Shown here one piece after another: positions 20-38,047 of a DNA stretch of 64,000 bases. How positions within the stretch are numbered: the first letter of the stretch is position 1; each line of letters begins with the position of its first letter. Made by a program: the position numbers and the translations under genes. Source of the DNA: a virus; the IMG/VR virus record IMGVR_UViG_3300008259_000023, positions 1 to 64,000 of that record; one strand, given 5' to 3'. The notes under the pieces are model-generated. The model was not told the origin of the DNA. It saw only the letters and a program-made list of their open reading frames with translations, and made no database searches.

Positions 20-823
20 TTACTGCTCGATAGCAGCTAATTTTTTCGCTAATTTATCAACTTCTTTCCGAAGAGCAACGCTATTTTTCTCCGGCCATTC
101 AATATTTTGTGTTTTCCAGAAATTAATCGATCTTATTCTGCTCTCTTCTTTCTCCTTATTGAACTTCTCCTCACTGTAATCGTAGTTCTTATCTGCACCC
201 CTTGAAACAAGCTCTTCCCAGCTTGGCCAAACGAAAGCATCTTTCTCTTTTTGCTTTAGCGCAAATATCTCATCATCTTTATAGGTCTTCGAATCTTTTA
301 CCCTTTTATCATTTGATTCAATTCTTTTTTCAAAACTCTCAATCTCATTGCGAAGTTTTTCAGCAGCTGTCATTTTTTTGATTTTCTTCTGGTACTCTTC
401 TGCTAGCTCGTTCTTCACGGATTTGGGTAATCTAGTTTTGGTGATGTATCGATAGTGTAACCTTTGGATGTTGTGACCACCTGCGTAAATCACCTCAGTA
501 CTTAAAGGATACTCTTTTTCGTCTCTAACAATTATAGCGTCAATTTCCAAATTACCTTTAGGTGAAACACTGGTGCCAATTTCTTTGAGTTTATCATCTG
601 GCTTAGTGTGGTTACCAATCGATTTAACGAGGTCACTGATAACTGTCAAACGTGTTAATTCCTCGTCGTATTTAGACATTGGTTTTTCAAATTTTTTCTG
701 AAATTGTTTCTTTATTTTTTCAACAAGATCATGAATATCAGGATCAATTTCGTCCAATATCTTGGATAGAATATTATTCTTCGGTATCAAGGAGAAATCC
801 TCAAAAAGCATTAGGTTCTTCAT
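20..823 (-). CDS. leader-tagged protein of unknown function
   Basis: Encodes 267 residues. I do not recognise a family. The N-terminus (MKNLMLFEDFSLIPK) matches the short leader shared by several unrelated proteins in this window and resembles the capsid-targeting sequence of T4 internal proteins; no LxE cleavage-like site is obvious straight after it. The rest is highly charged. Residues about 140-185 (KKIKKMTAAEKLRNEIESFE and onward) look like a coiled coil, and the C-terminus is also helical and Lys-rich. The octamer GATATATA lies 7 bp upstream of the start codon and overlaps the stop region of the transglycosylase gene. A virion-packaged protein is my inference from the leader only. Confidence 0.75.
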   Translation of the reverse strand: MKNLMLFEDFSLIPKNNILSKILDEIDPDIHDLVEKIKKQFQKKFEKPMSKYDEELTRLTVISDLVKSIGNHTKPDDKLKEIGTSVSPKGNLEIDAIIVRDEKEYPLSTEVIYAGGHNIQRLHYRYITKTRLPKSVKNELAEEYQKKIKKMTAAEKLRNEIESFEKRIESNDKRVKDSKTYKDDEIFALKQKEKDAFVWPSWEELVSRGADKNYDYSEEKFNKEKEESRIRSINFWKTQNIEWPEKNSVALRKEVDKLAKKLAAIEQ

Positions 824-830
824 CGTGAAT

Positions 831-838
831 TATATATC
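831..838 (-). promoter_or_regulatory. candidate late promoter octamer GATATATA
   Basis: Minus strand reads GTGATATATAATTCACG before the ATG at 823, a gap of 7 bp. Same octamer as at many other starts in this window. Overlaps the stop codon of the upstream transglycosylase gene. Confidence 0.5.
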
Positions 839-1349
839 ACAGCCAATCATAACTAAGTGAAACCACCTGCCTTGCATATTCATTCACGATTGGACGTCCT
901 GTATTGTAAGCTCCTGCAGCAAGATCCCATCTTCCAAATCTCTTCTTGAGGTATTTCAAGATCCTCATCGATGTTTCGACGTTATAATCTATGTCGTTCA
1001 AAAGAAGAGAATCTGAATATTTCTTTGGAGCAAATTTACGGGCAGACCCTGGCATGATCTGCATAGCTCCAAGAGCTCCGGCAGAAGAAACCAATCTCCA
1101 TTCATAATTTCTATGATTGGGACCTCGATATCCTGTTTCCCGGTATGCAAATGCAAATGCAATTTCTTCCGGGACATTGTATTTTTCGGAATATGTCTTC
1201 AGTGCGAAATACATTCTAACTGAAGGAGATTTCCAATCGATAGAAGTGGGATCGTTAATACTAATAATGTCCTTTTCCGCACGGACTTTCCATACGAAAG
1301 AAGCGAAGATCACAGCGAAGAATAATATGATTATTTTAACAAATTTCAT
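837..1349 (-). CDS. lytic transglycosylase (SLT family)
   Basis: Encodes 170 residues. Residues 1-24 form a signal peptide or membrane anchor (basic start, hydrophobic IIILFFAVIFASFVW, then VRAEKD). The remainder is a soluble lytic transglycosylase domain. The catalytic Glu is E71 in AYRETGYRGP. GALGAMQIMP follows at residues 91-100, and AAGAYNTGRP near 144-153 is the usual substrate-binding segment. These enzymes cleave the MurNAc-GlcNAc bond of peptidoglycan with formation of a 1,6-anhydro product. Export suggests action in the periplasm, in lysis or infection. The start overlaps the end of the next upstream gene by 4 bp, so the two are probably cotranscribed. Confidence 0.9.
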   Translation of the reverse strand: MKFVKIIILFFAVIFASFVWKVRAEKDIISINDPTSIDWKSPSVRMYFALKTYSEKYNVPEEIAFAFAYRETGYRGPNHRNYEWRLVSSAGALGAMQIMPGSARKFAPKKYSDSLLLNDIDYNVETSMRILKYLKKRFGRWDLAAGAYNTGRPIVNEYARQVVSLSYDWL

Positions 1350-1687
1350 TTCTTAGGAAAATGTAAAGAATAATAATCGTAGATTATCATTCCTATCGTA
1401 TCATTATAGATAGTTATTTTGTTTTCTTCCCTATCCATAAAAACCAATTCCCCTCTGTCGTTGACAGACACGGAAACTGTTGTTCTACCTTTGGTCTGGG
1501 GGAACTTGTCTTTCTTGGGGTTTAAACCATCGGAAACCTTATCGTAATTAAGTCCAGCGTAGAACGCAATGGCCATAGACGCAATAAGAATAACCAGATT
1601 CCAGGTCTTATTAAGACCGGCTAAGAAAGATTTTTTGGCTCGAGCCTTGATGCTCAATCCAGGGAAAAATTGTTGGTTCTGTTCCAT
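1346..1687 (-). CDS. small single-pass membrane protein
   Basis: Encodes 113 residues of unknown family. Basic N-terminal segment (KARAKKSF), then one clear transmembrane helix at about residues 31-46 (LVILIASMAIAFYAGL). The exported or cytoplasmic tail contains a short beta-rich stretch (TTVSVSVNDRGELVFMDREE). Its stop overlaps the start of the transglycosylase gene by 4 bp, so it probably works with the enzyme, for example in lysis; that role is inferred from position alone. Confidence 0.7.
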   Translation of the reverse strand: MEQNQQFFPGLSIKARAKKSFLAGLNKTWNLVILIASMAIAFYAGLNYDKVSDGLNPKKDKFPQTKGRTTVSVSVNDRGELVFMDREENKITIYNDTIGMIIYDYYSLHFPKK

Positions 1688-1771
1688 AAATTCTTGATAT
1701 TTAATTATTAACTATAACAAATATCAAAAAATGGGCCGTGAATTAAAAAAGAGGGAAGTTTTTTTCTATAA

Positions 1772-2173
1772 TTAAATACTGATCTTAGGATTTGTTGTTT
1801 GAAAATCCTTTTTTCTCATGATTGTTTTCATTTTGAGATCAAGTTCTTTACTCCTAGGATCATACTCTATAACGAATGGAGTATTGATGTCAGTTCTCAT
1901 ATCTTGAATAACCGCTTCCGCTTTAACTGGCAGCTGAGCGATCTTTTTTCCTGACTTGGAATATGCACGTTTAAATAGACCTATTAGTTCTGCTGATGTA
2001 ATTGGTTTCTTATTTCTCTCGTCGTTGATCCTGTCCTTAAAATGCTTACTAAACTCAACGTCCAAGCCAACATCCGAAAATAATTTATCAGCGTAAGTCT
2101 CGACAGTTTTGATTTCCTCGGGGGAAAGTTTTTCGTTTAGAGTGTTCCAAGATTCAAAATTCATCATATTCAT
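1772..2173 (-). CDS. leader-tagged conserved phage protein, unknown function
   Basis: Encodes 133 residues. The first residues (MNMMNFESWNTLNEKLS) resemble the packaging-type leader of this phage and contain LNE, the T4 prohead-protease consensus. The body has a pattern typical of small proteins in T4-like phages (FSKHFKDRINDERNKKPIT, then a helical segment and a beta-rich C-terminus), but I cannot name a function. GATAAATA lies 4 bp upstream of the start. The gene is divergent from the plus-strand gene at 2227, which also carries a leader, and the two share a 53-bp intergenic region with a promoter-like octamer for each. Confidence 0.75.
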   Translation of the reverse strand: MNMMNFESWNTLNEKLSPEEIKTVETYADKLFSDVGLDVEFSKHFKDRINDERNKKPITSAELIGLFKRAYSKSGKKIAQLPVKAEAVIQDMRTDINTPFVIEYDPRSKELDLKMKTIMRKKDFQTTNPKISI

Positions 2174-2177
2174 ACTC

Positions 2178-2185
2178 TATTTATC
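2178..2185 (-). promoter_or_regulatory. candidate late promoter octamer GATAAATA
   Basis: Minus strand reads AGATAAATAGAGTATG; the gap to the ATG at 2173 is 4 bp. Forms a divergent pair with the octamer at 2213-2220. Confidence 0.45.
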
Positions 2186-2212
2186 TCTGCCAAAACGCTT
2201 CAGTCAAAACTG

Positions 2213-2220
2213 GATATATA
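2213..2220 (+). promoter_or_regulatory. candidate late promoter octamer GATATATA
   Basis: Plus strand reads GGATATATAATAGCTATG with 6 bp to the ATG at 2227. It is the only clear copy facing right in front of a plus-strand gene, showing that the motif follows gene orientation rather than strand composition. Confidence 0.5.
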
Positions 2221-2226
2221 ATAGCT

Positions 2227-2505
2227 ATGAAGAACCTTAAGATATTCGAAGATTTTCTCAACGAGAGCGACAAATATGAATCGTTTTTAGAGCGTATCAA
2301 AAAGATGCCTGAAGAAGAGAAAGAGTTTCTTTCGAATGTGTGGATGGATTCTGACGAGATTACCTCAACTATAGCCTCTGCACTTTGGACTTCAGCCAGA
2401 ACTGGAAACAGTTTTAAGGAGAATGCTTTGAGATTTCTTGCAAAGAAAGGTCTAACGGTTGGTGCTGAAAAAGCATTGGACGATTTTATCTATAAAAATA
2501 GCTAA
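2227..2505 (+). CDS. leader-tagged small protein, unknown function
   Basis: Encodes 92 residues and is one of only three plus-strand genes. The N-terminus MKNLKIFEDFLNESDK is the best leader in the window: LNE followed by Ser is an exact match to the T4 gp21 cleavage consensus (L/I-x-E before a small residue). After cleavage about 79 residues would remain, largely helical (KMPEEEKEFLSNVWMDSDEI and ASALWTSARTGNSFKENAL). No known family recognised. It converges on the minus-strand gene ending at 2508 with 2 bp between the stops. Confidence 0.75.
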   Translation: MKNLKIFEDFLNESDKYESFLERIKKMPEEEKEFLSNVWMDSDEITSTIASALWTSARTGNSFKENALRFLAKKGLTVGAEKALDDFIYKNS

Positions 2506-2507
2506 AA

Positions 2508-2840
2508 TTACCCGACCATCATCCGGTCGTTTGCCATCATTGTTTGAACCTGAATAGGCTGAAAATATTGTGAATAGATATCTTTCACGTTTGTTGGAAC
2601 CGGAACGTAACCGCCAGTCTCGTTGATCTTATGAAGCGGTAAGAAGTTAACCCCTATTTTATTTTCGTCAATTACTTTGCAGACAATCTTGCAAAAGGAT
2701 TTATCAGGCTCTGTTACACAACAAATCAAACTGAATCTTCCTTCCTCGGTTTCTACCGGATGCGAAAAGTTAATTCCGCTTAAATCTCGGTTTTGGTGAA
2801 GCATCATAAGATGCTCTAGAAGTTTCTTCCTAGCGTTCAT
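2508..2840 (-). CDS. hypothetical protein
   Basis: Encodes 110 residues, no family recognised. Mixed alpha/beta: a helical start (MNARKKLLEHLMMLHQ) followed by beta-rich segments (GRFSLICCVTEPDKSFCKIV) and a Met-rich C-terminus. The start overlaps the stop of the upstream gene (TAATG, one base shared), so it is translationally linked to the genes at 2840-3555. Confidence 0.65.
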   Translation of the reverse strand: MNARKKLLEHLMMLHQNRDLSGINFSHPVETEEGRFSLICCVTEPDKSFCKIVCKVIDENKIGVNFLPLHKINETGGYVPVPTNVKDIYSQYFQPIQVQTMMANDRMMVG

Positions 2841-4068: not shown

Positions 4069-4255
4069 CCCTCTTATTTATCTTATTTTCTATTTCGTAC
4101 TTGACCTGTGCTACGTAGTTGAATGATTCGGTGGAACCTTGTAGTGCATCTGCACCTCTATACAAGCTCTTGATGAATTCCTCATCATTTTGAGCTTTCT
4201 CTCTCAGCTTGACAAGTTTTTCAACTTCTGGAAGTATTCTGCGATTAAATGACAT
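4058..4255 (-). CDS. hypothetical small protein
   Basis: Encodes 65 residues, mostly helical and charged (RRILPEVEKLVKLREKAQ, VAQVKYEIENKINKRDEN). The start shares one base with the stop of the polymerase C-terminal gene (TAATG), so it is translationally coupled to it. Function unknown. Confidence 0.6.
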   Translation of the reverse strand: MSFNRRILPEVEKLVKLREKAQNDEEFIKSLYRGADALQGSTESFNYVAQVKYEIENKINKRDEN

Positions 4256-5412
4256 TAGAATAAGGCTGTTATGGTAAATAAATTAGGACTGATAGGATTA
4301 TGACCCATTGCTTCAATGAATCTATTTATCGGATCTAGAATCGTTTTGGTGAATTGCATATCATAGTCAATCGCCGGTGCAAATTCGTATGGGTATGTTC
4401 CTTGTGAATAAGCAAAAACATTGCAGTCTGTGACTTTTTTGGTTTTAACGAAATACCATCTGACCTTTTCTCCACTCTGTATTAGCGGGTATTTACTTTT
4501 GTATTTAGAATTATTCAGAAGGAAATTGTGGAATCCCGAAGCTCTTACGTGGATAGGACAGCTGCCTGCTACCTCGAGAGAGGTCGAATCGTTGAGTATA
4601 AACTTCTCGTAGTTATTAGATGTGATACCTGCAGAAATTCTATCGGGTTCTTGAATCTTGAATTCCTTCTTGATATCTTTGATCTCTTTAACGAAATTCT
4701 TTAACTCAAATTTTGAACCATGAGTAAAGATGTATTTGGTTAAGTAAATCAGCTTCTCCCGAACAAAAGGAGGCGTACCGCCCTTTACCATCTCAACACC
4801 AGTGAATTTCAATTCTTTCAAACTCTGGATAGTTATCCCAGAGTCATAAGCGAGGTTGACAACGTATTTCTTTTTTCCTAAGAAGATAGCATTGTGTGAT
4901 AGTGTCTCAAGCTCAAAATCCTGGCAGTTTTCTGTGCCCCATTTTTTAGCGTAGATATTCAAGCAATTCTTGAGATAATCGTTTATACGGTACTCGTTTA
5001 TTTTTAAGATCAAATCCATTGGAGTTCCATTCCAATCACACGATTTGACAACCTCCTCAAAAGAAACATAGTTCGAATCAGTGTCAATGTATATTACTAG
5101 AGGTCTAGCAATTCTTCGAACCTCTGTCAGACCAATCTTCTCGTGTAACTCCTTGTCTATATGCCAATGTTCATTGAAATACCTATTGATAATCTTCTCC
5201 GCAAACTTAATCAAGTCTTGTCCCTGCAATGTTACAGCTTCCGCCACATCGGGATTCTGACAAACGAAAAACGAGTTTCCTACAGCTCCATAAATCGAAT
5301 TCATCGTTAGCTTAACCGCCTGCTCTTCGTTCTTCAGTTCATTCTTAAGATTGGTTAGACGTTCTATTTCTTTTCTGAGATCATCCTTTGTTTTTGTTTC
5401 CATCTCCATCAT
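4255..5412 (-). CDS. DNA polymerase family B, C-terminal subunit (split gp43, part B)
   Basis: Encodes 385 residues covering the second half of a T4-type replicative DNA polymerase: the second fingers helix, palm and thumb. Residues 7-30 (KTKDDLRKEIERLTNLKNEL) form a charged helix, followed by motif B with the dNTP-binding Lys at K34 (KLTMNSIYGAVGN). Motif C is YIDTDSN, with catalytic D110 and D112. The exonuclease domain and motif A are absent; they are encoded 13.7 kb away at 19065-20480. Together the pieces total 856 residues, close to T4 gp43 (898). The C-terminus (NLFTITALF) could be a clamp-binding tail. Split gp43 is known in some Aeromonas T4-like phages, where the pieces lie close together. 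Neither piece can polymerise alone. Confidence 0.9.
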   Translation of the reverse strand: MMEMETKTKDDLRKEIERLTNLKNELKNEEQAVKLTMNSIYGAVGNSFFVCQNPDVAEAVTLQGQDLIKFAEKIINRYFNEHWHIDKELHEKIGLTEVRRIARPLVIYIDTDSNYVSFEEVVKSCDWNGTPMDLILKINEYRINDYLKNCLNIYAKKWGTENCQDFELETLSHNAIFLGKKKYVVNLAYDSGITIQSLKELKFTGVEMVKGGTPPFVREKLIYLTKYIFTHGSKFELKNFVKEIKDIKKEFKIQEPDRISAGITSNNYEKFILNDSTSLEVAGSCPIHVRASGFHNFLLNNSKYKSKYPLIQSGEKVRWYFVKTKKVTDCNVFAYSQGTYPYEFAPAIDYDMQFTKTILDPINRFIEAMGHNPISPNLFTITALF

Positions 5413-6290: not shown

Positions 6291-7697
6291 TTAAATATTT
6301 TCATCTTCTTCAGGGAAAGATTCTTCCTCTGCTTCTACCTCAGGCTGGTAAATCTCGATTCCGTCATCTGTTACTGTTTTCTCTGTGTAATCTTCCTCTC
6401 CAAATAAAGCCATGGCCTTTTTAAGTGCAACAGTGGGTTTTACCGTGAATGACTTCCAAATTTTTTCCTGATCTTTTGCTTCTTTGGTTAATTTCTTCTT
6501 CTGGCCTTCAAGCTCCTGTATCTGTTTTTTAACCTCGTTGATGGTGTCATTGGAGAGTCTAACCAATTCAATTTTAGAAAGTCTTCTAGCAATCCAATCA
6601 GGGTATTTAGAAATAAAGTCTGTAATTTCTTTCGATGTTCTTTTTGGACCAGACATGAATACTAGAAATTCAAGTTTGGCTTTGAGGTAAGAGATTTCGT
6701 TAGTGGCATCATCGAGATCCTTCAGAATTCTTTTCAATAGAACACGATTGTAGTGCTCCTTGAACTCGTCGAGATATTCCTTGATTGAATCATACTCTTT
6801 GACACCTCCATCTTTGATCAGCACTATATTTTCATTGACTACGATCTGAGTCAATTTTTTGATCTGGGCAGAAACGTAATCAAATTCCTTTGGAGTTATC
6901 TTCTTGAAAAGGATTTCAATGTTAACGGTCGATTGGGATTTGTTGCGGATAGTGTACTCATATCCCATCATTTCCAGCTTCGTTGTGAGCTTAATGATAA
7001 AGTTATCATATCTCATGAGCGGAGGTAAATCCTGAATCTCTACTGCCTTCCTGGATTTATCTTCCTTAAAATTCCCCTCCAATAGCCAGCATTTCTCAGA
7101 TCCCTGCAGTTTAGTAATCTTTCCGCTAAAATCTTTAAAGTGTGGCTTGAGCAGCTTATTCTGCCCTTGAATGTATTCCACCACATCCTCTAATTTTCTG
7201 GGAAGTATATTTGATCTGTATCCGACAGCGATTCCAACCACATGTGTAACTAGACCGATGGGAAGTTCAGTGTGAAGCCAATCGTATCCTCCCTCTTTGT
7301 TTTTTTCGTTAAGATCCAGATGTCTGAAAAGAATTTCCGAAGATCTGGGGTTAACCCTAACCGATGTGTATCTTGGAGCAGAAGGGTTCGGGTTCACTGG
7401 GGATCCGAAAAATCCATCTCCTTCCAGAATTTGGTGAGAGCATCCGAATGGCCTTGCAAGCTTGGATACTGCACCTGCTAACGATGAATCTGAGTGGTGG
7501 TATAATCCAGTTCTGATTACCTCACCTACTAGTCCTAGCGTTTTGTTAAATGTTTTGGGAGCGTGCTGAACGATCAGTCTCTGAACCGGGGTTAGACCGT
7601 CGTAAAAATTAGGGATTCCTCTTGATTGTAGAACATACAGAGCATAGCTTCTATACTGACTGTTGATCTGATCTGTGATAGTAATATATTTTTCCAC
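6291..7697 (-). CDS. type II DNA topoisomerase medium subunit (gp52-like, GyrA/ParC family)
   Basis: Encodes 468 residues (T4 gp52 has 441). Starts with GTG preceded by AGG. It contains the breakage-reunion domain: YALYVLQSRGIPNFYDGLTP, then GDGFFGSP and the catalytic tyrosine Y110 in SAPRYTSVRV, which forms the phosphotyrosyl DNA link. A coiled-coil segment follows (residues about 325-400) and an acidic tail (EEESFPEEDENI). It pairs with the ATPase subunit at 10587-12362. The two subunits are separated by DnaJ, UV endonuclease and small genes. Confidence 0.92.
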   Translation of the reverse strand: MEKYITITDQINSQYRSYALYVLQSRGIPNFYDGLTPVQRLIVQHAPKTFNKTLGLVGEVIRTGLYHHSDSSLAGAVSKLARPFGCSHQILEGDGFFGSPVNPNPSAPRYTSVRVNPRSSEILFRHLDLNEKNKEGGYDWLHTELPIGLVTHVVGIAVGYRSNILPRKLEDVVEYIQGQNKLLKPHFKDFSGKITKLQGSEKCWLLEGNFKEDKSRKAVEIQDLPPLMRYDNFIIKLTTKLEMMGYEYTIRNKSQSTVNIEILFKKITPKEFDYVSAQIKKLTQIVVNENIVLIKDGGVKEYDSIKEYLDEFKEHYNRVLLKRILKDLDDATNEISYLKAKLEFLVFMSGPKRTSKEITDFISKYPDWIARRLSKIELVRLSNDTINEVKKQIQELEGQKKKLTKEAKDQEKIWKSFTVKPTVALKKAMALFGEEDYTEKTVTDDGIEIYQPEVEAEEESFPEEDENI

Positions 7698-7717
7698 CTA
7701 TTTGCAATTATGATGGT

Positions 7718-8029
7718 TTATATTTTATCACTTATGAAAAATTTCCAAATGATCATGTCTGCGATGTACGAAAATCCGCTGCTGCAGAATGTAAGGATGA
7801 AAATATCCAACCATGGACTATCTGGAAAAATAATTAGGACATCGGAAAAGTTGAGTATTAATGCCTGGGCCAGTCCTACATAAACTGAAGCGCACATCAT
7901 ACAGGTTACCATGCTTCCCCAAAATGGTGAATTCAAAAGCAAGAATTTTCTCGCCCCTGAAAAAATCGAGCCATGCACAATGATATTAGCGATCGACCAG
8001 GCGTTAAATAATAGTATTAGTAAAATCAT
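7718..8029 (-). CDS. membrane protein of DUF1360-like type
   Basis: Encodes 103 residues with three likely membrane segments: residues 1-20 (ILLILLFNAWSIANIIV), about 34-60 (FWGSMVTCMMCASVYVGLAQ) and 72-98 (IFILTFCSSGFSYIADMIIW). The Trp-Gly-x-x-x-x-C-x-x-C arrangement in the middle recalls DUF1360-like small membrane proteins that are common in T4-like phages; the family name is tentative. The start overlaps the DnaJ stop by 4 bp. Confidence 0.65.
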   Translation of the reverse strand: MILLILLFNAWSIANIIVHGSIFSGARKFLLLNSPFWGSMVTCMMCASVYVGLAQALILNFSDVLIIFPDSPWLDIFILTFCSSGFSYIADMIIWKFFISDKI

Positions 8030-9045
8030 AAAATTTCTTCTAGTTCTCTCAATTTTGAGATTTTTTCTTCGTTAAGTTCCTTTGGCATTTCAAGAACTAT
8101 CTTAACAATTATATCGCCTTTAACTCCATTGGAGTGATTTGGCAATCCCTTGCCTTGCAGTCTAAAAATTCTTCCTGGTGCAGTTAATTCAGGGATGTTG
8201 AATTTAAAAGACCCGCCAAGAAGATTTGGTATTTCCAGATCCCCGCCAAGGCAAGCTTTAGTAAATGATACTTTCTTATTGCAGATCAAATCTAAATTTG
8301 ATCTCTCGAAAGTTGGGTGAGCATATTCTTCTATTTTGACAGTTACGTCGCCTGGAATTGTGCAACCTCTAACCCATTCTCCCTTGCCAGTCAAGATGAA
8401 GTTCATACCTGGGACAAATCCAGCTGGTATTTTAACCTCTATTCTTTCATTGGCGTGCACGAATCCGTTTCCAAAGCAAGAGATACAAGCGTTGGTAACT
8501 ATTTTTCCTTCACCTGCGCAATGTGGGCATGCCTCGTCCATAGTGATCTGACCAAAACCCGAATTAATAGACTTCCTTCTGAATCCTAATCCCATACACT
8601 GGTTACAAGTTTGAGCTTGTCCATTATCAGCTCCCGTTCCGCTGCACGGAACGCACATCGTTCTTTTTCGGAGTTCGATTTCCTTTTTTGAACCGGTGGC
8701 CATTTCTTCCAAAGTCAGATTAACCATGATCATCAGGTTAGGACCTTTAACAGATTTAGATCTTCGATTTCCACCACTGAAAATATCTCCCATATTGAAA
8801 TTGAAGATGTCTTCCATCCCTTGGAATGGACCCCATCCGCTAACGGGATTATCGTATTTTTGTTTTTTAGCTGGATCCGAAAGAGTATCGTAAGCCTCTG
8901 TCAGGTCAGTAAATTTTTGATTTAACTCAGGGTCTCCACCAGTTTTATCCGGGTGGTATTGGATGGCTAGCTTACGGTATGCCTTTTTGATCTGCTCCGG
9001 AGTTGCGTTCCGATCTACCCCTAATGTTGCGTAATAGTCCTTCAT
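8026..9045 (-). CDS. dnaJ: DnaJ co-chaperone
   Basis: Encodes 339 residues, slightly shorter than bacterial DnaJ (about 370-380). J-domain with HPDK at residues 32-35, a short Gly/Phe region (GWGPFQGMEDIFNFNMGDIF), and a complete zinc-binding region with four CxxCxGxG repeats (CVPCSGTG, CNQCMGLG, CPHCAGEG, CISCFGNG). Both C-terminal substrate-binding domains are present. It should stimulate the ATPase of DnaK; the phage also carries dnaK at 21916-23814. Phage-encoded J-proteins may help in virion assembly or replisome remodelling. Probably acquired from a host. Confidence 0.93.
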   Translation of the reverse strand: MKDYYATLGVDRNATPEQIKKAYRKLAIQYHPDKTGGDPELNQKFTDLTEAYDTLSDPAKKQKYDNPVSGWGPFQGMEDIFNFNMGDIFSGGNRRSKSVKGPNLMIMVNLTLEEMATGSKKEIELRKRTMCVPCSGTGADNGQAQTCNQCMGLGFRRKSINSGFGQITMDEACPHCAGEGKIVTNACISCFGNGFVHANERIEVKIPAGFVPGMNFILTGKGEWVRGCTIPGDVTVKIEEYAHPTFERSNLDLICNKKVSFTKACLGGDLEIPNLLGGSFKFNIPELTAPGRIFRLQGKGLPNHSNGVKGDIIVKIVLEMPKELNEEKISKLRELEEIL

Positions 9046-9047
9046 TA

Positions 9048-9389
9048 TTAGATAGTTGATTTTAACCAGGCTTTGATGTCGTCAAAACCTTTTTTGAGTG
9101 GTTTAGAATTGAATTTCTTCCATTTTTCAAGAAGCTGTGGCTTGGTATCCAGGATCTCGTTACATACCTCATACTCTTCTATACTTTCTCTGTACTTGAT
9201 TATTCCGTCACAGAATTCGTCGATCTCTTCCTCTGAGTCGAATATCAGCATGAATTCATCGTCTAGATTTCTAATGCTGATCAGAAATAGGTCCTGCATC
9301 GCACGCACAAGATGAGATTTGATCAGCTCAATTTGTGGATGGTCCGATGGGAACCTCGAGAATGGACTATTGAGAAACGGCAAACTCAT
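9048..9389 (-). CDS. hypothetical protein
   Basis: Encodes 113 residues with no recognised family. Acidic, with a segment of beta strands and helix in the middle (NLDDEFMLIFDSEEEIDEF) and a basic helical C-terminus. It is 2 bp from the dnaJ start and overlaps the gene upstream by 4 bp, so it is part of the UV endonuclease-dnaJ operon. Confidence 0.6.
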   Translation of the reverse strand: MSLPFLNSPFSRFPSDHPQIELIKSHLVRAMQDLFLISIRNLDDEFMLIFDSEEEIDEFCDGIIKYRESIEEYEVCNEILDTKPQLLEKWKKFNSKPLKKGFDDIKAWLKSTI

Positions 9390-9631
9390 TGCTTCAACAT
9401 TTCAAAAATTTTCAGAAATGTATCGTGGTTTGAGAGGTATTTGATTTCTATGCCGTTGGTTTCTAAAGTTTTCTGCACCTCTTCCTCCCCAAAATTCTCT
9501 GATAAGATATCGTAATGGATTTTTGAAGTGATCTCCTCGTCGGGTGTCCAAGTTACCTCTTTAACACCTAGGAGTTGTTTTTCGAAATCGTCAAATCTCT
9601 GATATGCTTCTTGGATTTTTTCGTCGCTCAT
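9386..9631 (-). CDS. hypothetical small protein
   Basis: Encodes 81 residues, charged and mostly helical (KIQEAYQRFDDFEKQLLGVK; FGEEEVQKTLETNGIEIKYL). No family recognised. Overlaps both neighbours by 4 bp, so it is translationally coupled to the UV endonuclease gene. Confidence 0.6.
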   Translation of the reverse strand: MSDEKIQEAYQRFDDFEKQLLGVKEVTWTPDEEITSKIHYDILSENFGEEEVQKTLETNGIEIKYLSNHDTFLKIFEMLKQ

Positions 9632-10551
9632 GCTTGGTTTTTAAGATATTTTAATAATGCGAGATCTTTCATTTTGACCTCGAATTCTATATCTATTTCA
9701 AACCCATAAGTTTCGATATTTCTGCTCCAAATCCAATCGGTGTGTGCAAGCAATTTGCTGCTTTCGTCCTCGTTCAATTTACGGGATTCTGAATAATGAG
9801 TGATCGGTGTAATCCCCTCCGGCCATGTAGATATTGAAACCTGCAATGCTTCTTTTTCGGAATGCCCATCTCGAGGGTTACAGAAGTAGTGCAGATAATC
9901 AAACGTCAATGGTATCCCTACTTTCTGGTGAACCAATTCATACAGATCGAAAGGGTTAAATTCGCTAGGCTTATCGTCGTTTTCCAGAACCAATCTTTTT
10001 CTGACATTCTCCGGAAGCTGTGAATAGGCTTCACAGAATCTAGCTGCTGCAGATTCCTTATCAGGCTTGGTTGTATTTATATGGATATTAATCGGATAGT
10101 TGAAATTCTGTTCAAGACCCATCAGATCCATAATCTCAGCATGTTGTCTCAATTCTTTAATTGAGTTTTTTACAACGTCTTCCCGTAGAGAAGAAATAAC
10201 ACAAAAGTGAGACGGGTGGAATGTTAATCTCTGTTTGTATATTTTAGATTTTGCCCCACACCACATGAGTGCTTTCTTGATCTCCTCGAAGTCGGGAAGA
10301 TCCGAAAGCTCATATTCCGAGCACCACGGGAATAGATCAGAGCTCATCCGGAACATCATTATTCCATTGTCCCTGTTCCACTCTATGATATGTTCCAGAT
10401 CTTGAACGTTCTTTAAAGCAAGCTCAGAAGCTTTCTTCAATCCGCCTTCAAGAAAGGTCTTTTTTGTGAGCGACCGGTTGGTGTAAATTCTTTCAGAATC
10501 TTTTTTCCCTTCGTTAATGGAAAGATTGATGCAGCAGTACCCATATCTCAT
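9628..10551 (-). CDS. UV damage endonuclease (UvsE/UVDE family)
   Basis: Encodes 307 residues, typical for the family. Begins MRYGYCCINLSI as UVDE proteins do, followed by the TIM-barrel metal-binding residues: HPSHF, IHINTTKPDK, the ENDDK segment (LVLENDDKPSEF), FDYLHYF and HYSES. UVDE nicks DNA 5' to UV photoproducts and other lesions and feeds alternative excision repair. T4 uses the unrelated DenV glycosylase, so this is a replacement. Head of a small operon running to dnaJ and beyond. Confidence 0.9.
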   Translation of the reverse strand: MRYGYCCINLSINEGKKDSERIYTNRSLTKKTFLEGGLKKASELALKNVQDLEHIIEWNRDNGIMMFRMSSDLFPWCSEYELSDLPDFEEIKKALMWCGAKSKIYKQRLTFHPSHFCVISSLREDVVKNSIKELRQHAEIMDLMGLEQNFNYPINIHINTTKPDKESAAARFCEAYSQLPENVRKRLVLENDDKPSEFNPFDLYELVHQKVGIPLTFDYLHYFCNPRDGHSEKEALQVSISTWPEGITPITHYSESRKLNEDESSKLLAHTDWIWSRNIETYGFEIDIEFEVKMKDLALLKYLKNQA

Positions 10552-12448: not shown

Positions 12449-12973
12449 TTAAGCTTTTGGCTTGTAGAATACCTCGTCTATTTTCAATGGATCGATGTGA
12501 GCTTTCTTGGTGTAGTCACCTTTTTTGTAGAAAGAATATGGAATTGCAATAATTTTTCCACCTTTTCCATCAGCATCTTTTTCAACTGAATCAACTACGA
12601 ATTCTGAATCGAAGAAGATATTTCTCTTATCGCCGAAACGGTCGATGTCGATGTCGTCTTCTTCAGGATCGTAGCCCTGTGAACGCATTTGTGTAGCAAT
12701 TCTTTCTCTTTCTTTTCTGATGATGTCCTGAACGTAGTCAGGTGCACCTTTTCCCTGTGTGGGGACATCAGCAACAACGGTGATCTCTTCGATCTCTCCG
12801 GCTTTCTTTCTTTCCAAGAATTCTTCGATGATGTCGATCAGTTCAGAATACTTGGCGGTGAAATCTGGCTCAGCAGCACCCGATGCTGACACTTCCAATT
12901 CATTGTAAACTGGAATAGCGGCTTCGAATACCTCTTTGACAGAAAAATTTTCGTAAAGGGTTAAGTGTCTCAT
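12449..12973 (-). CDS. leader-tagged protein, unknown function
   Basis: Encodes 174 residues. Leader MRHLTLYENFSVKEVFEAA, very similar to the leader at 25531 (MRHLRVFEKYS). VFE before Ala is a plausible prohead-protease site. The body is acidic with a helical middle and a C-terminal beta-rich part (IAIPYSFYKKGDYTKKAHID). No family recognised. It is a single-gene unit: GATATATA 39 bp upstream, after a weak hairpin, and a strong terminator at 12404-12425. Confidence 0.75.
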   Translation of the reverse strand: MRHLTLYENFSVKEVFEAAIPVYNELEVSASGAAEPDFTAKYSELIDIIEEFLERKKAGEIEEITVVADVPTQGKGAPDYVQDIIRKERERIATQMRSQGYDPEEDDIDIDRFGDKRNIFFDSEFVVDSVEKDADGKGGKIIAIPYSFYKKGDYTKKAHIDPLKIDEVFYKPKA

Positions 12974-13012: not shown

Positions 13013-13020
13013 TATATATC
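13013..13020 (-). promoter_or_regulatory. candidate late promoter octamer GATATATA
   Basis: Minus strand reads AAGATATATAAAGATAG directly after the hairpin at 13022-13039 and 39 bp before the ATG at 12973. AAAGAG just before that ATG may be a weak ribosome binding site. Confidence 0.55.
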
Positions 13021-14360: not shown

Positions 14361-14996
14361 TTAGGCCTTCTTGTTTTCGGCTTCCGGTTTTTCGCTTGCG
14401 ATCTTTTTGATCTTCAGTCTTTTGACAATCTTTTCGGAAACCTTTTCAGCATCACCGAGATCTTTAATCTCGATCATTTTCCTGCTCTTCTTATATTGGT
14501 CTATTACCGGAAGGGTACGAACTTCGTAATCTTGGAATTTTTCTTCTACAGCTGCGGAATCAAATTTCTTTCCATCTTTCTCAGCTTTCTTTCTTAGACG
14601 ATTCACAGCAACGTCTTTTTCTATATCAAGGAAAACTGCATGATTTAAGCCTATCCCCATTTCCCCCAAAACCTTATCCAGAATAACCGATTGCTTTCTG
14701 GTTCTAGGAAATCCGTCAAAAACTATATTTTTGCTAAGATCCAATGATTTGATTCTCTCTTTCAAAAGATCCATCATTCCTCTTTCTGTTACCACGTTGT
14801 CTTTGGAAGCTTTCGTAGGATCGCTGGTCATCAGCTCTTTCACTTTGACCTCCTGAAATTCGTAATCGTTTTTCAGAATTTTTGTGACTGTTCCTTTACC
14901 AGATCCTGGAGGGCCTAAAATCACTATAATTTTTCCCTGTGAATCAGGTAATTCTCTCTCAAAAAGAAATGATGAAAAGTCCAATATATTTTTCAT
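14361..14996 (-). CDS. adenylate kinase with packaging-type leader
   Basis: Encodes 211 residues from the ATG at 14996. That start is preferred over a possible one at 15017 because it gives the leader MKNILDFSSFLFERELPDS, shared with other proteins here, and lies 8 bp from a GATATATA octamer. The core begins at residue 22 with KIIVILGPPGSGKGT (P-loop); NVVTERGMMDLL, VFDGFPRTR and a LID-like region (RLRKKAEKDGKKFDSAAVEE) follow. Adenylate kinases normally start directly at the P-loop strand, so the 20-residue extension is extra; LFE before Arg could be cleaved. Lys-rich C-terminal tail. It interconverts AMP, ADP and ATP, possibly inside the newly infected cell after injection. Confidence 0.85.
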   Translation of the reverse strand: MKNILDFSSFLFERELPDSQGKIIVILGPPGSGKGTVTKILKNDYEFQEVKVKELMTSDPTKASKDNVVTERGMMDLLKERIKSLDLSKNIVFDGFPRTRKQSVILDKVLGEMGIGLNHAVFLDIEKDVAVNRLRKKAEKDGKKFDSAAVEEKFQDYEVRTLPVIDQYKKSRKMIEIKDLGDAEKVSEKIVKRLKIKKIASEKPEAENKKA

Positions 14997-15004: not shown

Positions 15005-15012
15005 TATATATC
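15005..15012 (-). promoter_or_regulatory. candidate late promoter octamer GATATATA
   Basis: Minus strand reads GTGGATATATAGATTGG, placed 5 bp after the nrdA terminator and 8 bp before the adenylate kinase ATG. One of the four clearest terminator-octamer-gene arrangements. Confidence 0.6.
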
Positions 15013-20488: not shown

Positions 20489-20791
20489 ATGAGGATAGTC
20501 GAAAGTTTCGAAAATTATGTTGCAGAATATTACATTTCAGCATCGCCTGGATCGGTTGTAGTCCCTGGCGAATGGTATAAAGACAATGTAAATTCTGTTA
20601 ATTATGTAGATAAGAAACAGCCTCTTCCGATGGTAATTGACCCCATGTTTGAAAAGGATAAAATCTATATCCACCTCGATGAGTTATCAACTAACGAGGA
20701 CTTCGTCAATCTTTTACGCTCAGAAGGATTGGGTGCTAAGAAGGTTATCGAATTTATTAAAGATTGGCTTTACACCAAGCACCTCTCTTAA
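20489..20791 (+). CDS. leader-like small protein, unknown function
   Basis: Encodes 100 residues on the plus strand, divergent from the polymerase part A gene with only 8 bp between the starts. N-terminus MRIVESFENYVAEYY resembles the packaging leader (FENY, then VAE). The rest is mixed: PLPMVIDPMFEKDKIYIHL and a helical C-terminus. No family recognised. Converges on the glycosylase gene with the stop codons overlapping. Confidence 0.65.
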   Translation: MRIVESFENYVAEYYISASPGSVVVPGEWYKDNVNSVNYVDKKQPLPMVIDPMFEKDKIYIHLDELSTNEDFVNLLRSEGLGAKKVIEFIKDWLYTKHLS

Positions 20792-21261: not shown

Positions 21262-21825
21262 TTAGAAATAAGTTTGTTCGAAGTAAAGGATCTCGAATTT
21301 GTTATTGATATTCACAAGCTCGAGAGCATTCAATAGATCAGAATATTCTGCTACTGATTCGTTTTGGATATCAACGAATTTCTGAATGAAATTGAAAGTT
21401 GCTGGATGTGTATCAGACAATGCACTCTGCATCGCTGAATAATTAAGCAATAGATTATATTCAACATCGTAAGCTACATCAACGATTCCAACCAATGATT
21501 TGAATTGAATGTTTGGATCTACAGGCATCATCTTAGGAATGATATTCCATTGGGTAAGGTAATCCATCAACATGTTAGCATGCTCCAATTCGTAAGCTGC
21601 CTCAGCTTCGAAGAATGCCGCAGCCTTTTTGTAGTTCATATTCTTGCACCAGTTAGCTGCATTTCTGTAGGTATAATGTGCGTTATATTCTCCTGCAATT
21701 CTTTTTTCGATCTCTGTTACGATGTCCGCAGGTAAAGTTTTAGGCTTTGTAATTTCGGGCATAGCCACCATACTCAATTCGATTGCCTCGTTATTATTAC
21801 CTTTGAAGTGCTTAAATGATTCCAT
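21262..21825 (-). CDS. ferritin-like protein with leader-like N-terminus
   Basis: Encodes 187 residues. Residues 33-170 form a four-helix ferritin-like bundle with the expected ligands: E46 (IAGEYNAHYTY), E79 and H82 (YELEHANML), a Glu in the third helix (VEYNLLLNY) and NESVAEYSDLL in the fourth. It could store or oxidise iron or protect DNA. Residues 1-32 (MESFKHFKGNNNEAIELSM) are an extension not found in ferritins and resemble the packaging leader loosely. GATATATA lies 18 bp upstream, directly after the dnaK terminator, and a terminator follows: a stand-alone cassette. Confidence 0.8.
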   Translation of the reverse strand: MESFKHFKGNNNEAIELSMVAMPEITKPKTLPADIVTEIEKRIAGEYNAHYTYRNAANWCKNMNYKKAAAFFEAEAAYELEHANMLMDYLTQWNIIPKMMPVDPNIQFKSLVGIVDVAYDVEYNLLLNYSAMQSALSDTHPATFNFIQKFVDIQNESVAEYSDLLNALELVNINNKFEILYFEQTYF

Positions 21826-21843: not shown

Positions 21844-21851
21844 TATATATC
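21844..21851 (-). promoter_or_regulatory. candidate late promoter octamer GATATATA
   Basis: Minus strand reads CTGATATATAGATAAAAC, 15 bp after the dnaK terminator and 18 bp before the ATG at 21825. Confidence 0.6.
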
Positions 21852-21915: not shown

Positions 21916-23814
21916 TTATTTTGATTTGGAGCCTACTTCTTCGAATTCTACATCCTCGAAATTCTCTTGACCCTCTTGGGTCCCGGTTGTACTCGTGCTT
22001 TCGCTTTCAGAATTTGGAGTTGAGTAGATACTAGCAGAAATCGCGTTCATCAATTTCATACACTCATCAATTTCTTTTTCTAACATATCGATATTCTCGG
22101 CATCTTTCAATTTCCTGATTTCGGATATCTTGTCATTGATTTTTGATTTTTCGTCATCGGAAACTTTGTTCCCGAAATCATCCAAAGCCTTTTCCGACTG
22201 CATGCAAGCATTCTCAGCATCATTAATAATCTGGGATTTTCTCAGTCTTTTCTTATCTTCCTCCTCGTTTTCTCTTGCCTCGTTTTTTAGTCTTTCGATT
22301 TCCTCTTCAGAAAGCTTTGATCCTGATTCGATCCTCACGTTTTGTTTTTTTCCAGTTCCTTTGTCCAAAGCAGTCACGCTCAAAATACCATTGGAGTCAA
22401 TATCGAAGGTAACCTCGATCTGAGGGATTCCTCTCATTGAAGGTGGGATATCTGTAAGCTGAAATCTTCCTAGTGTTCGGTTGTCTGATGCCATGGGGCG
22501 TTCTCCCTGTAGAACGTGGATATCAACTGCTGGCTGATTATCCACAGCGGTTGAGAACATTTGGCTTTTCTTCGTTGGGATTGTTGTATTAGATTCAATT
22601 AGTTTTGTAAATACACCACCCATAGTTTCAATACCCAAGCTTAATGGTGTAACGTCAAGAAGTAGTACGTCTTTAACCTCTCCACCTAAAACTCCTCCTT
22701 GAATTGCTGCACCGAGACTAACCACTTCATCTGGATTTACGCTCTTACTTGGTTTTTTACCAAAGAATTTTTCGACCTCCTCCTGGATCTTAGGGATTCT
22801 ACTTGTTCCACCAACCAGGATCACTTCATCAATATCCGAATTTAACAATCCTGCTTCTACCATTGCTGTTGAGCAAGGAGCCAATGATCGCTTAATTAGA
22901 TCATCTATCATCTGCTCAAATTTTACTCTTGTTAATTTAGAGACGAAGTGTTTAGGACCTTCGCTTCCTGCTGAAAGGTATGGTAAATTGATCTCAGCTT
23001 CAACAGAAGAGGAAAGTTCAACCTTTGCCTTCTCCGCTGATTCTCTAACCCTCTGTAAAGCCATTGCATCCTGACCAATATCGATCCCGCTTTCGTTTTT
23101 AAATTCTGATATGATCCAGTCAACAATTCTCTCGTCAAAATCATCACCACCCAAATGAGTATCCCCGCTGGTTGAAAGAACCTCGAATACACCAGAACCA
23201 ATTTCTAGAATTGAAACGTCGTGGGTACCTCCGCCGATGTCAAAAACAACTACCTTTTGGTCTTTGTCTTTTCTGTCCAATCCATAGGCTAGTGCTGCAG
23301 CGGTTGGCTCGTTGATAATTCTCAAAACTTCCAATCCAGCAATTTCGCCCGCTTCTTTTGTTGCCTGTCTCTGACTGTCGTTGAAATAAGCAGGCACGGT
23401 GATCACTGCTTTGGAAACTGTTTCTCCCAGGTAATCTTCCGCAGTCTTTTTCAGATTCTGTAAAACCATAGCAGAAATCTCTTGAGGGATATACTCCTTC
23501 TGGTTTGCTTCGATCAAAACTTTATCACCAGTTCCTTTTTTAACCTTGTAAGGCATTCTTTGAGCTTCCTTCTTCAGCTCAGAGAATTTAGACCCGATAA
23601 ATCTTTTTACAGAAAATAATGTTTCAGTTGGGTTGGTCACGGCCTGACGTTTTGCTGGATCGCCGATTTTAATTTCTCCATTTTTAAAACTCACAATACT
23701 TGGAGTTGTTCTCTTTCCTTCGTTGTTAACGATTACTACAGGTTTTCCACCCTCTAAGACGGAAACACAAGAATTTGTTGTTCCTAAATCAATACCGATA
23801 ATTTTATTACTCAT
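21916..23814 (-). CDS. dnaK: molecular chaperone DnaK (Hsp70)
   Basis: Encodes 632 residues, the full bacterial length. ATPase domain: [67 protein letters not shown]. Linker [19 protein letters not shown]. Substrate-binding domain and helical lid are complete, ending in an acidic [14 protein letters not shown] tail as in cellular DnaK. The sequence is close in style to Bacteroidota DnaK and was probably taken from a host. It would work with the phage DnaJ at 8026-9045; no grpE is visible in the window. Upstream lies a 136-bp region with direct repeats. Confidence 0.97.
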
Positions 23815-24893: not shown

Positions 24894-25121
24894 TTATAGA
24901 ATTTTTGTGATTAAGTTCTGGGCGATCCTAACTGTTTGACCGCCTTTATCTATTGCTATATATCCCACGATGTCTCGATATGAATCTCTAATTGCCTCTA
25001 GTATCAAAAGCTCATTCCCTTTATAGTCGATCACGGTCTTTTTTTCCAAGCGAAATGGCTCAGCGTATTTTGCATGATCCGCTTTTGAATATTCCTGTGC
25101 CCGTCTATTACAATTACACAT
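24894..25121 (-). CDS. hypothetical small protein
   Basis: Encodes 75 residues. Starts MCNCNRRAQEYSK; the rest is predicted beta-rich (VIDYKGNELLILEAI; VGYIAIDKGGQTVRIAQ). No family recognised. The start shares one base with the stop of the gene upstream, so the two are coupled. Confidence 0.6.
   Translation of the reverse strand: MCNCNRRAQEYSKADHAKYAEPFRLEKKTVIDYKGNELLILEAIRDSYRDIVGYIAIDKGGQTVRIAQNLITKIL
24957..24964 (-). promoter_or_regulatory. possible internal promoter octamer GATATATA
   Basis: Minus strand reads GGGATATATAGCAATAG inside the small gene 24894-25121, 64 bp before the ATG at 24892. It could drive the virion-like gene 24212-24892, or be a chance match. Confidence 0.25.
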
Positions 25122-25531
25122 TATCTGAAATCGCCAAGGTTTGCTTTGCGCCTAAGGTATTGCCATAGGAACAAAAAAGCTCTTCTATAATCCGATTCGT
25201 CCTTAAATTTTGGATATTTGAATAATACATTTCCGCTACCTGCAGGGGTTTCCTCGCTTTTCGGCGGGTTGTATCTTCTAATAGAACCAGATGGATGGAT
25301 AGTGTAAAACACCTCACCAAATCCGTCCTCTGACTGTTTATGTCTCGAACGAACAAACTTGATGGTGTTATTCAACTCTTGCTGAAACGAGGTGTCTTCT
25401 TTGAATCCCAAATCAATAATGTCCCGATACTCCTGCATCGAACGGACTTTTTCAAGATCCAATGAACGACGACTATCGGCCTTATATTCTTTAAATGGGC
25501 TATATTTTTCGAAGACCCTCAGATGTCTCAT
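25121..25531 (-). CDS. leader-tagged protein, unknown function
   Basis: Encodes 136 residues. Leader MRHLRVFEKYSPFKEYKADS, nearly the same as the leader at 12973 (MRHLTLYENFS). Body: helical EKVRSMQEYRDIIDLGF, beta-rich GEVFYTIHPSGSIRRYNPP, then a helical and basic end (RRAFLFLWQYLRRKANLGDF). No family recognised. Overlaps the gene upstream by 4 bp. Confidence 0.7.
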   Translation of the reverse strand: MRHLRVFEKYSPFKEYKADSRRSLDLEKVRSMQEYRDIIDLGFKEDTSFQQELNNTIKFVRSRHKQSEDGFGEVFYTIHPSGSIRRYNPPKSEETPAGSGNVLFKYPKFKDESDYRRAFLFLWQYLRRKANLGDFR

Positions 25532-26997: not shown

Positions 26998-27540
26998 TCA
27001 ACGACTGATTATCAAACTTTCAGGGTTTGGACCCTGCTGTACTGACCACTCATCACCAAGAAATTGTGATGCGGTTACCTTCATGTCATCTATATAGTCA
27101 CGATCTGGGAAATCAGCATTGACCTGCATTTCATCGAAAATTCTGATAACCTGAGGATTATTCTGGAGGTAATCGAGCAAAGCTTGTGCGCAAGTTTCCA
27201 ATAATCTCGTAGCCATCATTCCTTTAACCACAAATTTCTCCTTATTCAATAGAGGCACATCGGCTTTATCTATTGCTAGGTCCTCTAATAATTGCTCAGA
27301 GATCTTGTTCAATCTCATAACAGTATAAGAGTTTTTAGGACCGGGTGTGTCTTGGAATTCCGAGTATTTACCCAATGACAGGAAGAAGCAATTCTCGCTC
27401 TGATCCTCATCTTCAACCTTGAAAAAGTAGTTGTAGATGTTGCCGGTTCTTTTCTCCAAAAATGGGAGAGTTCCGAACCCATCGGACTCATTCACCCCGT
27501 TGGTGAGGAAAGAATCGTAAGAAAGAATGTGCTTTGTCAT
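26998..27540 (-). CDS. leader-tagged protein, unknown function
   Basis: Encodes 180 residues. Leader MTKHILSYDSFLTNGVNESD: VNE before Ser fits the prohead protease consensus. The mature part has beta-rich segments (GNIYNYFFKVEDEDQSENCF), helices (KISEQLLEDLAIDKADVPLL) and an acidic C-terminal region. No family recognised. GATATATA lies 13 bp upstream. Confidence 0.75.
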   Translation of the reverse strand: MTKHILSYDSFLTNGVNESDGFGTLPFLEKRTGNIYNYFFKVEDEDQSENCFFLSLGKYSEFQDTPGPKNSYTVMRLNKISEQLLEDLAIDKADVPLLNKEKFVVKGMMATRLLETCAQALLDYLQNNPQVIRIFDEMQVNADFPDRDYIDDMKVTASQFLGDEWSVQQGPNPESLIISR

Positions 27541-27553: not shown

Positions 27554-27561
27554 TATATATC
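27554..27561 (-). promoter_or_regulatory. candidate late promoter octamer GATATATA
   Basis: Minus strand reads GATGATATATAGAGAATACG, 13 bp before the ATG at 27540 and just after the stop of the metallophosphoesterase gene. Confidence 0.55.
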
Positions 27562-34878: not shown

Positions 34879-34894
34879 CGATGAACAATCAGAA

Positions 34895-36624: not shown

Positions 36625-36639
36625 GCGAATTTTTACAAT

Positions 36640-37464
36640 TTAAGCTGTAGCTCCCGCCCAGGTCACCGATGCAATGACAGAGGGGATTGCCGGACGTAAT
36701 GGACCTGAGGTAGGTCCTTGATAATACAATAAAACATCTTCGTCGGTCGAAGACCAAACTAATTCAAAATAATCTCCGCCCGAAGCCGCGATCACGAAGT
36801 TCCATGCGGCAACCACTTTAGCGTTATTTCCAGGAAGGTACAGGGAGGTGTTACTATCGGGGAGGTTTGCTCCATTTTTAGAGAGCCAAAGATCTACGAA
36901 ATCGATACCGCTATCCGTTTTGTCTATTTGTGCGGAGAATTGGATATTATAAATTCCGGGATACTGTACGGTCATCCTGGATCCGCCAGTCACATAAACG
37001 CCATTGGTTATAGTCGTGGTGTTAAATGTAATAATATTAGCAGCAGTTATACCACCGCTCAGCTGTGATGTTGTATCATAAAATGACCCGCATGGCATGA
37101 ATGCGCCGGTTCCTCCCGCAGGATAGCTAGAACCAACAATATCTTCAACGGTTATGGTATTTGTAAGTTGTGTTAAATTTATAATGGTAGGGAAAACAGC
37201 ATCGGACCAATAAGCTTTAGATAGAGCGTTTAATAAACCACCAAGAATATTGTTGCCATTTCCAGTTTTGAAAAGGGTAATTCTAGTTCCGTAATAGTAT
37301 TTTCTACTGTTTATCTCACCAGCTAAAGTTGCAGAAACTGAATCGAAAAATAGGACCACAGCATCCTCGGTTGAATATATCTCCGAAATTGCTTCCAGCG
37401 GGAATGATTGGGTAGTGTTCTGTCCCGAACTATTTGTATTCAGTATGAATTGAACATATTCCAT
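36640..37464 (-). CDS. virion protein with C-terminal jelly-roll-like domain
   Basis: Encodes 274 residues, Thr/Gly/Asn-rich and beta-rich. The last 110 residues (GSRMTVQYPGIYNIQFSAQI, FVDLWLSKNGANLPDS, YFELVWSSTDEDVLLYYQG) have the pattern of a C1q/TNF-like jelly roll, typical of receptor-binding tips of phage fibres. First gene of the tail block after the replication block. Probably a fibre tip or decoration protein. Confidence 0.65.
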   Translation of the reverse strand: MEYVQFILNTNSSGQNTTQSFPLEAISEIYSTEDAVVLFFDSVSATLAGEINSRKYYYGTRITLFKTGNGNNILGGLLNALSKAYWSDAVFPTIINLTQLTNTITVEDIVGSSYPAGGTGAFMPCGSFYDTTSQLSGGITAANIITFNTTTITNGVYVTGGSRMTVQYPGIYNIQFSAQIDKTDSGIDFVDLWLSKNGANLPDSNTSLYLPGNNAKVVAAWNFVIAASGGDYFELVWSSTDEDVLLYYQGPTSGPLRPAIPSVIASVTWAGATA

Positions 37465-37468
37465 TATC

Positions 37469-37810
37469 TTAGGGATATATTAAAATTCTTTTCTGCGTGA
37501 TGTAACCTTGAGAAGCGAAATCTAAAAAGATGAACGTTTGTGTTGATGTTGTATTGTTAACAGCTTTTTGCCATGATGAATTCATAAAATCACCGCTTCC
37601 CGCCGGACCAGTAAAATTATAAGCAGTACCATAAGCTTCATGACCGGGGTTGGTCACAGATAGATCAACCGTGGAGTTAACAGCTTTAGAAACGATAGAG
37701 AAAGTCGTAGAAGTAGATTCCGTGGTTGTAACCAAATCGGGATTAATTAAAACCGATAGGGTCTTACCGGAGCTATCCCAGCCATAGATTATTCCAACGA
37801 GACCAGACAT
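37469..37810 (-). CDS. probable virion protein, small
   Basis: Encodes 113 residues, Thr/Ser/Gly-rich (LVTTTESTSTTFSIVSKAVN; YNFTGPAGSGDFMNSSWQKA). Predicted beta structure throughout. No family recognised; composition and the 4-bp spacing to the next gene place it with the tail genes. Confidence 0.6.
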   Translation of the reverse strand: MSGLVGIIYGWDSSGKTLSVLINPDLVTTTESTSTTFSIVSKAVNSTVDLSVTNPGHEAYGTAYNFTGPAGSGDFMNSSWQKAVNNTTSTQTFIFLDFASQGYITQKRILIYP

Positions 37811-37813
37811 TCA

Positions 37814-38047
37814 TTATTTGCTTGGTACGTTTTCACCTTGTTTGCCAGTGAAAGCGTATTCTTTAACAAGTTTATCGTAACACTTCTTCATCTGATCCTC
37901 ACTTAAACAAGCTACGATGTCGTTCAATACTCTTACATCGTTTCCTGCTGCAGTGATAAGATGGTTTTTCATCAGATCCTTCTCGTCGTACAAAGGTTGT
38001 CCGTACTTCATTTCATTAAGTCTCTGTATTTGGGAAAACGTTTTCAT
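37814..38047 (-). CDS. leader-tagged small protein, unknown function
   Basis: Encodes 77 residues. Leader MKTFSQIQRLNEMKYG closely resembles the T4 capsid-targeting sequence (MKTYQEFIAEA), with LNE at residues 10-12. The rest is a helical protein (KNHLITAAGNDVRVLNDIVA; SEDQMKKCYDKLVKEYAF). No family recognised. GATATATA lies 28 bp upstream. It sits in the tail block but appears to be a separate cassette. Confidence 0.7.
   Translation of the reverse strand: MKTFSQIQRLNEMKYGQPLYDEKDLMKNHLITAAGNDVRVLNDIVACLSEDQMKKCYDKLVKEYAFTGKQGENVPSK

Follow-up and report, generated by a model that had tools for sequence, protein, structure and literature searches.

Candidate T4-type capsid-targeting leaders on many unrelated proteins in a clade of huge phages

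We analysed a 64,000-nucleotide stretch of viral DNA (IMG/VR record IMGVR_UViG_3300008259_000023, positions 1 to 64,000; the window), in which ten genes encode proteins that begin with a similar short leader (Table 1). The initial annotation had listed these ten starts and all of them proved correct, the one at 14996 being an ATG that lies 21 nt within the longest open reading frame (ORF). The leader was described there as an aromatic cluster often followed by a hydrophobic-x-Glu site. The cluster, ArxxAr (Ar = aromatic), was found within the first 13 residues in nine of the ten proteins, but ORF 37814-38047 has F4-x-x-I7 instead. A candidate [LI]-x-E cleavage site is clear in 7/10; in ORF 21262-21825 the site is NNNE and its P3 residue is hence non-hydrophobic. 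Six of the listed proteins match the strict leader pattern ^M.{1,8}ArxxAr.{0,6}[LIVM]xE (65 window genes, chance P = 4e-4). Genes were called with an in-house script, and the choice of start modestly shifts all counts. The bodies behind the leaders are unrelated, as had been claimed: a comparison of 49 leader proteins, taken from the window and a relative, G006, gave just two matching pairs, namely the adenylate kinase orthologs and two G006 proteins.

The window matched IMGVR_UViG_3300008450_000005 (G002, 116 kb) at 99.83% across its entire length; by this measure G002 is the same virus, and it supplied head genes beyond what the window holds. Among the remoter relatives are IMG/VR contigs that reach 373 kb in length and the uncultured 462-kb phage LR756500. 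Further leaders were present both in the rest of the same genome and in the relatives. In seven relatives, the core and site were seen at 6-14% of N-termini but at 0.8-1.7% of internal Met residues of the same proteins, and the N-termini exceeded the internal Met residues in every relative (Fisher P 2e-14 to 3e-4; 1.7e-10 for LR756500). Six related contigs encode 1119 proteins of 100 aa or more; in these the pattern most often started at residue 7 (51 proteins), with 18, 23, 11 and 11 proteins for starts at residues 6, 8, 9 and 10, whereas the background over residues 21-60 averaged 1.7 per position. The leaders had a median length of 14 aa (5th-95th percentile, 11-19). With a looser pattern, 55 tagged proteins were counted in G006, ~44 of them above chance. 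Leaders were also found in 14/158 proteins sampled from the uncultured phage LR756501 and in 6/96 from LR756504.

The residues around the putative cut (↓) were biased as well. P2 was Asn in 63/125 leaders, compared with a background of 6%, and P1' was Ser, Gly or Ala in 70/125, compared with ~20%; because both positions lie outside the search pattern, these enrichments are independent of it. Replication genes, which had been expected to be poor in leaders, were free of them: 0/117 replication and nucleotide-metabolism orthologs carried one, whereas 159/1582 others did (P = 7e-6). Among tail and head core orthologs the count was 2/76.

A gp21-type protease had been suggested as something to look for, and Peptidase_S77 was detected in G002 (6755-8719) and five other relatives. 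The G002 protein is a 654-residue fusion followed by the major capsid protein (MCP, 8738-10441), both named by PHROG (head maturation protease, E=3e-31, for the former). The catalytic-region motifs GELDHP and SSRA are conserved, and T4 gp21 was the only solved relative found, with a weak match (5jbl, E = 0.013). The protease domain is followed on its C-terminal side by a scaffold-like region of tandem 14-residue repeats of the form KNISYSEYLAENLD. Most of 30 IMG/VR loci have ~11-15 copies with the core ArxxAr[LIV]xE, mostly spaced by exactly 14 residues; truncated loci were left unscored and one distant member has 6 copies. YSEYLAE and YSEYIAE are examples of the core, to which the T4 tag YQEFIAE is nearly identical, and in the proteomes searched no other protein had at least 3 copies of it. 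The repeats also occur in the uncultured phages LR756501 (735 kb), LR756502, LR756504 and LR745206, and in a degenerate form in LR756500. The protease-repeat fusion (G002:C1:6755-8719) is common to uncultured phages of 634-735 kb. Its AlphaFold2 model was poor (mean predicted local distance difference test score 54), with a single long helix across the repeats, and was left out of the fold search for that reason. Around residue 44, ~20 of the fetched loci have a conserved HSLNE↓SAG in the MCP; its LNE↓S recurs in the leaders, suggesting that the S77 protease cuts at [LIV]NE↓S. Conserved leader proteins flank the protease and the MCP, one of ~265 aa upstream and others of ~380, ~310 and ~85-90 aa downstream.

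Orthologs retained the core and the Glu site despite changes in spacer length. The set of ORF 26998-27540 (alignment A3) shows an invariant second aromatic in its 21 sequences, with a spacer of none to ~10 residues, and the Glu almost always stands immediately before the conserved (S)DG[FY]G body. Orthologs of ORF 12449-12973 (G004, G006, G011, G019, G023) have ArxxAr and a Glu directly before the conserved [IL]P body; those of the adenylate kinase have RFSDFVNE↓RELPD and TFEDFALNE↓RQLPD, and the G019 ortholog of the ferritin-like protein has MKTFKHFKGGTNE↓GL. [VLI]NE↓M was kept in the orthologs of ORF 37814-38047. A kept core and Glu boundary with a variable spacer is as expected of a detachable tag with a cleavage site. 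In the AlphaFold2 model of the ORF 26998-27540 protein, residues 8-14 form a short, low-confidence helix at the core, residues 15-23, a low-confidence linker that includes the site, are unstructured, and a confidently predicted body folds after ~27; a fold search of the PDB with this model gave nothing significant (best E 0.011).

A short element, GATATATA (fuller form GATATATA[A/G]), was found within 45 nt upstream of 64/131 leader genes but of 113/1158 others (P = 2e-25), and upstream of 3% of replication genes. When 60 nt were counted in the window, it preceded 7/10 listed genes and 5/55 others (P = 1e-4). In G006, the element is also seen ahead of the protease and some tail genes. It is probably a late promoter, and since it often lies just 4-6 nt ahead of the ATG, it would yield leaderless transcripts. 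Neither this element nor the scaffold repeats had been mentioned in the initial annotation.

Table 1. Leaders and upstream elements of the ten listed window genes (↓, putative cut)
Feature	Positions	Strand	Leader sequence and remarks	Body
Leader, ORF 20-823	749..823	-	MKNLMLFEDFSL...; ArxxAr core, first LxE at residues 23-25	weak Pfam matches only
Leader, ORF 1772-2173	2132..2173	-	MNMMNFESWNTLNE↓KL	matches end of phrog_23027
Leader, ORF 2227-2505	2227..2265	+	MKNLKIFEDFLNE↓SD	
Leader, ORF 12449-12973	12923..12973	-	MRHLTLYENFSVKEVFE↓AAIPVY; possible earlier site after SVKE	
Leader, ORF 14361-14996	14958..14996	-	MKNILDFSSFLFE↓RELPD	adenylate kinase (Pfam ADK, E=3e-22)
Leader, ORF 20489-20791	20489..20527	+	MRIVESFENYVAE↓YY	
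Leader, ORF 21262-21825	21787..21825	-	MESFKHFKGNNNE↓AI; T4 register F4, F7	ferritin-like (Pfam Ferritin, E=9e-20, domain from residue 39)
Leader, ORF 25121-25531	25487..25531	-	MRHLRVFEKYSPFKE; conserved ArxxAr, no canonical site, no [LIVM]xE nearby	
Leader, ORF 26998-27540	27487..27540	-	MTKHILSYDSFLTNGVNE↓SDGFG	
Leader, ORF 37814-38047	38012..38047	-	MKTFSQIQRLNE↓MK; Ile instead of second aromatic	
GATATATA upstream of ORF 20-823	831..838	-		
GATATATA upstream of ORF 2227-2505	2213..2220	+		
GATATATA upstream of ORF 12449-12973	13013..13020	-		
GATATATA upstream of ORF 14361-14996	15005..15012	-		
GATATATA upstream of ORF 21262-21825	21844..21851	-		
GATATATA upstream of ORF 26998-27540	27554..27561	-		
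GATATATA upstream of ORF 37814-38047	38076..38083	-		

Pfam searches with 50 leader proteins identified adenylate kinase, ferritin-like, PG_binding_1, SLT transglycosylase, GDPD, RimK-like ATP-grasp, DUF2201/VWA metallopeptidase and LRR domains, together with sub-threshold matches to Hydrolase_2 and OmpA; most of the 50 had no Pfam family. For the window bodies, Pfam named only two and a PHROG function was lacking for most. The leader-bearing SLT protein of G006 (89027-89899) is unlike the transglycosylase-like protein at 837-1349 of the window, which on a reading of its sequence has an N-terminal hydrophobic signal in place of the leader. Other window proteins, read in the same way, include an apparently split DNA polymerase encoded by two genes ~14 kb apart (4255-5412 and 19065-20480) and phage-encoded homologues of DnaJ and DnaK (8026-9045 and 21916-23814). 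An identity with the published bS21 freshwater phages was considered, and a gene for the ribosomal protein bS21 was seen in 1/9 records (G006:C1:40696-40851), distant from the head genes, unlike in those phages. PADLOC gave marginal matches only.

The likeness of the leaders to the T4 capsid-targeting sequence (CTS), on which the initial annotation was built, held at the level of single residues. According to PMC9026906, genetics of the T4 CTS, a propeptide of 10-19 residues, assigns the aromatic residues 4 and 7 to targeting and residues 8 and 10 to processing, and the ArxxAr and [LIV]xE of the leaders coincide with these mapped residues. All features of the T4 CTS that can be tested in sequence were found in the leaders. 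When applied to T4 itself, the leader search recovered IPII and IPIII and also flagged four short proteins (61.1, 61.4, e.8 and pseT.1), while IPI (MKTFKEF...ITE19↓A) by eye has a like layout with a long spacer. T4 61.1 (L119:18966-19130) starts with MKTFKEFIKE↓D, near the IPII/IPIII tag, and is possibly an overlooked T4 capsid cargo.

We conclude that the leaders represent a greatly expanded T4-like payload system in this huge-phage clade. They are very probably T4-type capsid-targeting propeptides, with cargo that would be packed in the head, cut by the S77 protease and injected with the DNA. The sequence comparisons support the earlier proposal of a payload delivered with the DNA, and every computational check suggested with it came out favourably. 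The proteins would be made late in infection with an N-terminal tag of 10-19 residues, the aromatic-x-x-aromatic face of which would dock on the prohead core. The S77 prohead protease would cut after [LIV]-x-E, mostly [LIV]-N-E↓S/G/A, and the cargo would remain in the head and enter the cell together with the DNA; docking, cleavage, packaging and injection are the steps that we infer.

As a refinement, the docking surface could be the scaffold-like part of the protease. There the aromatic-x-x-aromatic-[LIV]-x-E unit is repeated in tandem, so that the tag would work as a detached scaffold repeat: the cargo would join the scaffold of ~11-15 units and one fused protease would cut them all. The shared seven-residue core and a multi-copy protein as the predicted binding partner make a plausible basis for the idea, but we offer this new mechanism tentatively and judge its chance to be a little below even.

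An N-terminal address to some other destination (tail or baseplate, membrane, or phage replication compartment), with a coincidental [LIV]xE, would suit the many cargoes of unknown function and the scatter of leaders across the genome, not limited to the head region. It appears improbable to us, because the Glu boundary is kept in orthologs as the spacers change, the P2 and P1' preferences agree with the MCP site LNE↓SAG, only the prohead protease/scaffold matches in multiple copies in the proteomes, and the corresponding residues are mapped in a capsid tag known from T4. Still less probable is that these N-termini mark scaffold or core subunits (analogues of T4 gp22, gp67 and gp68) that build the prohead, with no payload delivered. 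Although conserved leader proteins do adjoin the protease and the MCP on both sides, adenylate kinase, ferritin-like, RimK-type ATP-grasp, SLT and other wall-hydrolase, GDPD, DUF2201/VWA metallopeptidase and LRR cargoes are not scaffold proteins, and fusions with the T4 tag are reported in the literature to be packaged and then delivered into the cell. Chance, or the N-terminal composition of Bacteroidota phages, is hardly credible: AT-rich phages commonly have lysine- and aromatic-rich N-termini, but in the relatives the internal-Met, shuffled and any-window controls fell several-fold short of the N-termini, unrelated phages that share the hosts did not show an equal frequency, N-termini of Tenacibaculum phage PTm1 were not above the internal-Met background (P = 0.88), Lak-A1 (2/113 proteins, 4/354 internal Met) and a 50-kb part of cyanophage syn9 (a single match) were near background, and the mixed codon use of the leaders places the signal at the protein level. 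A DNA-level cause of the leader was ruled out by the same mixed codons.

Several observations weigh against the leaders as capsid-targeting propeptides and against the scaffold-repeat refinement. Two listed leaders (ORFs 20-823 and 25121-25531) lack a canonical cleavage site, and a test of three genomes found leaders to cluster only weakly near the head genes (P = 0.02, 0.13 and 0.06). The link to the scaffold is a similarity over a seven-residue core, in which the leader has F..F and LNE and the repeat Y..Y and LAE; T4 has the tag without tandem repeats, and LR756502 has scaffold repeats yet few leaders over 100 kb. Neither virion proteomics nor N-terminal data turned up for any relative, and all relatives found are uncultured.

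If cargo does enter the head by imitating the scaffold, huge phages, the 735-kb LR756501 among them, would have turned a short repeat within a scaffold into an import signal that serves tens of effectors genome-wide. It would also hint at the structure that the T4 tag mimics, and it offers a testable answer, the scaffold repeat, to what the T4-type capsid tag binds. The leader would also provide a sequence rule to predict which unknown huge-phage proteins are carried in the virion and probably reach the cell as infection begins, with adenylate kinase, ferritin-like protein, RimK-type ligase, wall hydrolases and metallopeptidase as candidate injected enzymes.

In the literature searched, with partial coverage, neither such leaders nor the scaffold repeats were found described for huge phages. 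The giant phages phiKZ and SPN3US resemble the system proposed here in that a diverged gp21-like protease cleaves many of their head proteins (inner-body and ejection proteins) behind Glu and these are ejected; the passages on them in PMC9026906 and PMC13282480 give the cleavage motif as S/A-x-E, with few other determinants, and mention no short aromatic tag common to unrelated cargoes. The phiKZ-type S/A-x-E was not found here, since P3 is L/I/V where the pattern matches, N predominates at P2 and the MCP has LNE↓SAG. ORF-300 of PTm1 is similarly an S77 protease fused to a prohead core scaffold, but it has no aromatic 14-residue repeats, and PTm1 lacks leaders above background. The T4 CTS (IPI, IPII and IPIII; gp21 processing) shares the N-terminal tag of 10-19 residues with aromatics at i and i+3, the predicted cut after hydrophobic-x-Glu, the S77 protease and the unrelated cargoes. 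The T4 core starts at residue 4, whereas here it usually starts at residue 7, and T4 prefers Y..F with IAE↓A, whereas F..F with LNE↓S is preferred here. T4 has a handful of tagged proteins; here ~40-55 are found in one genome and, unlike in T4, a scaffold of tandem repeats with the same core is joined to the protease and the genes share the upstream GATATATA.

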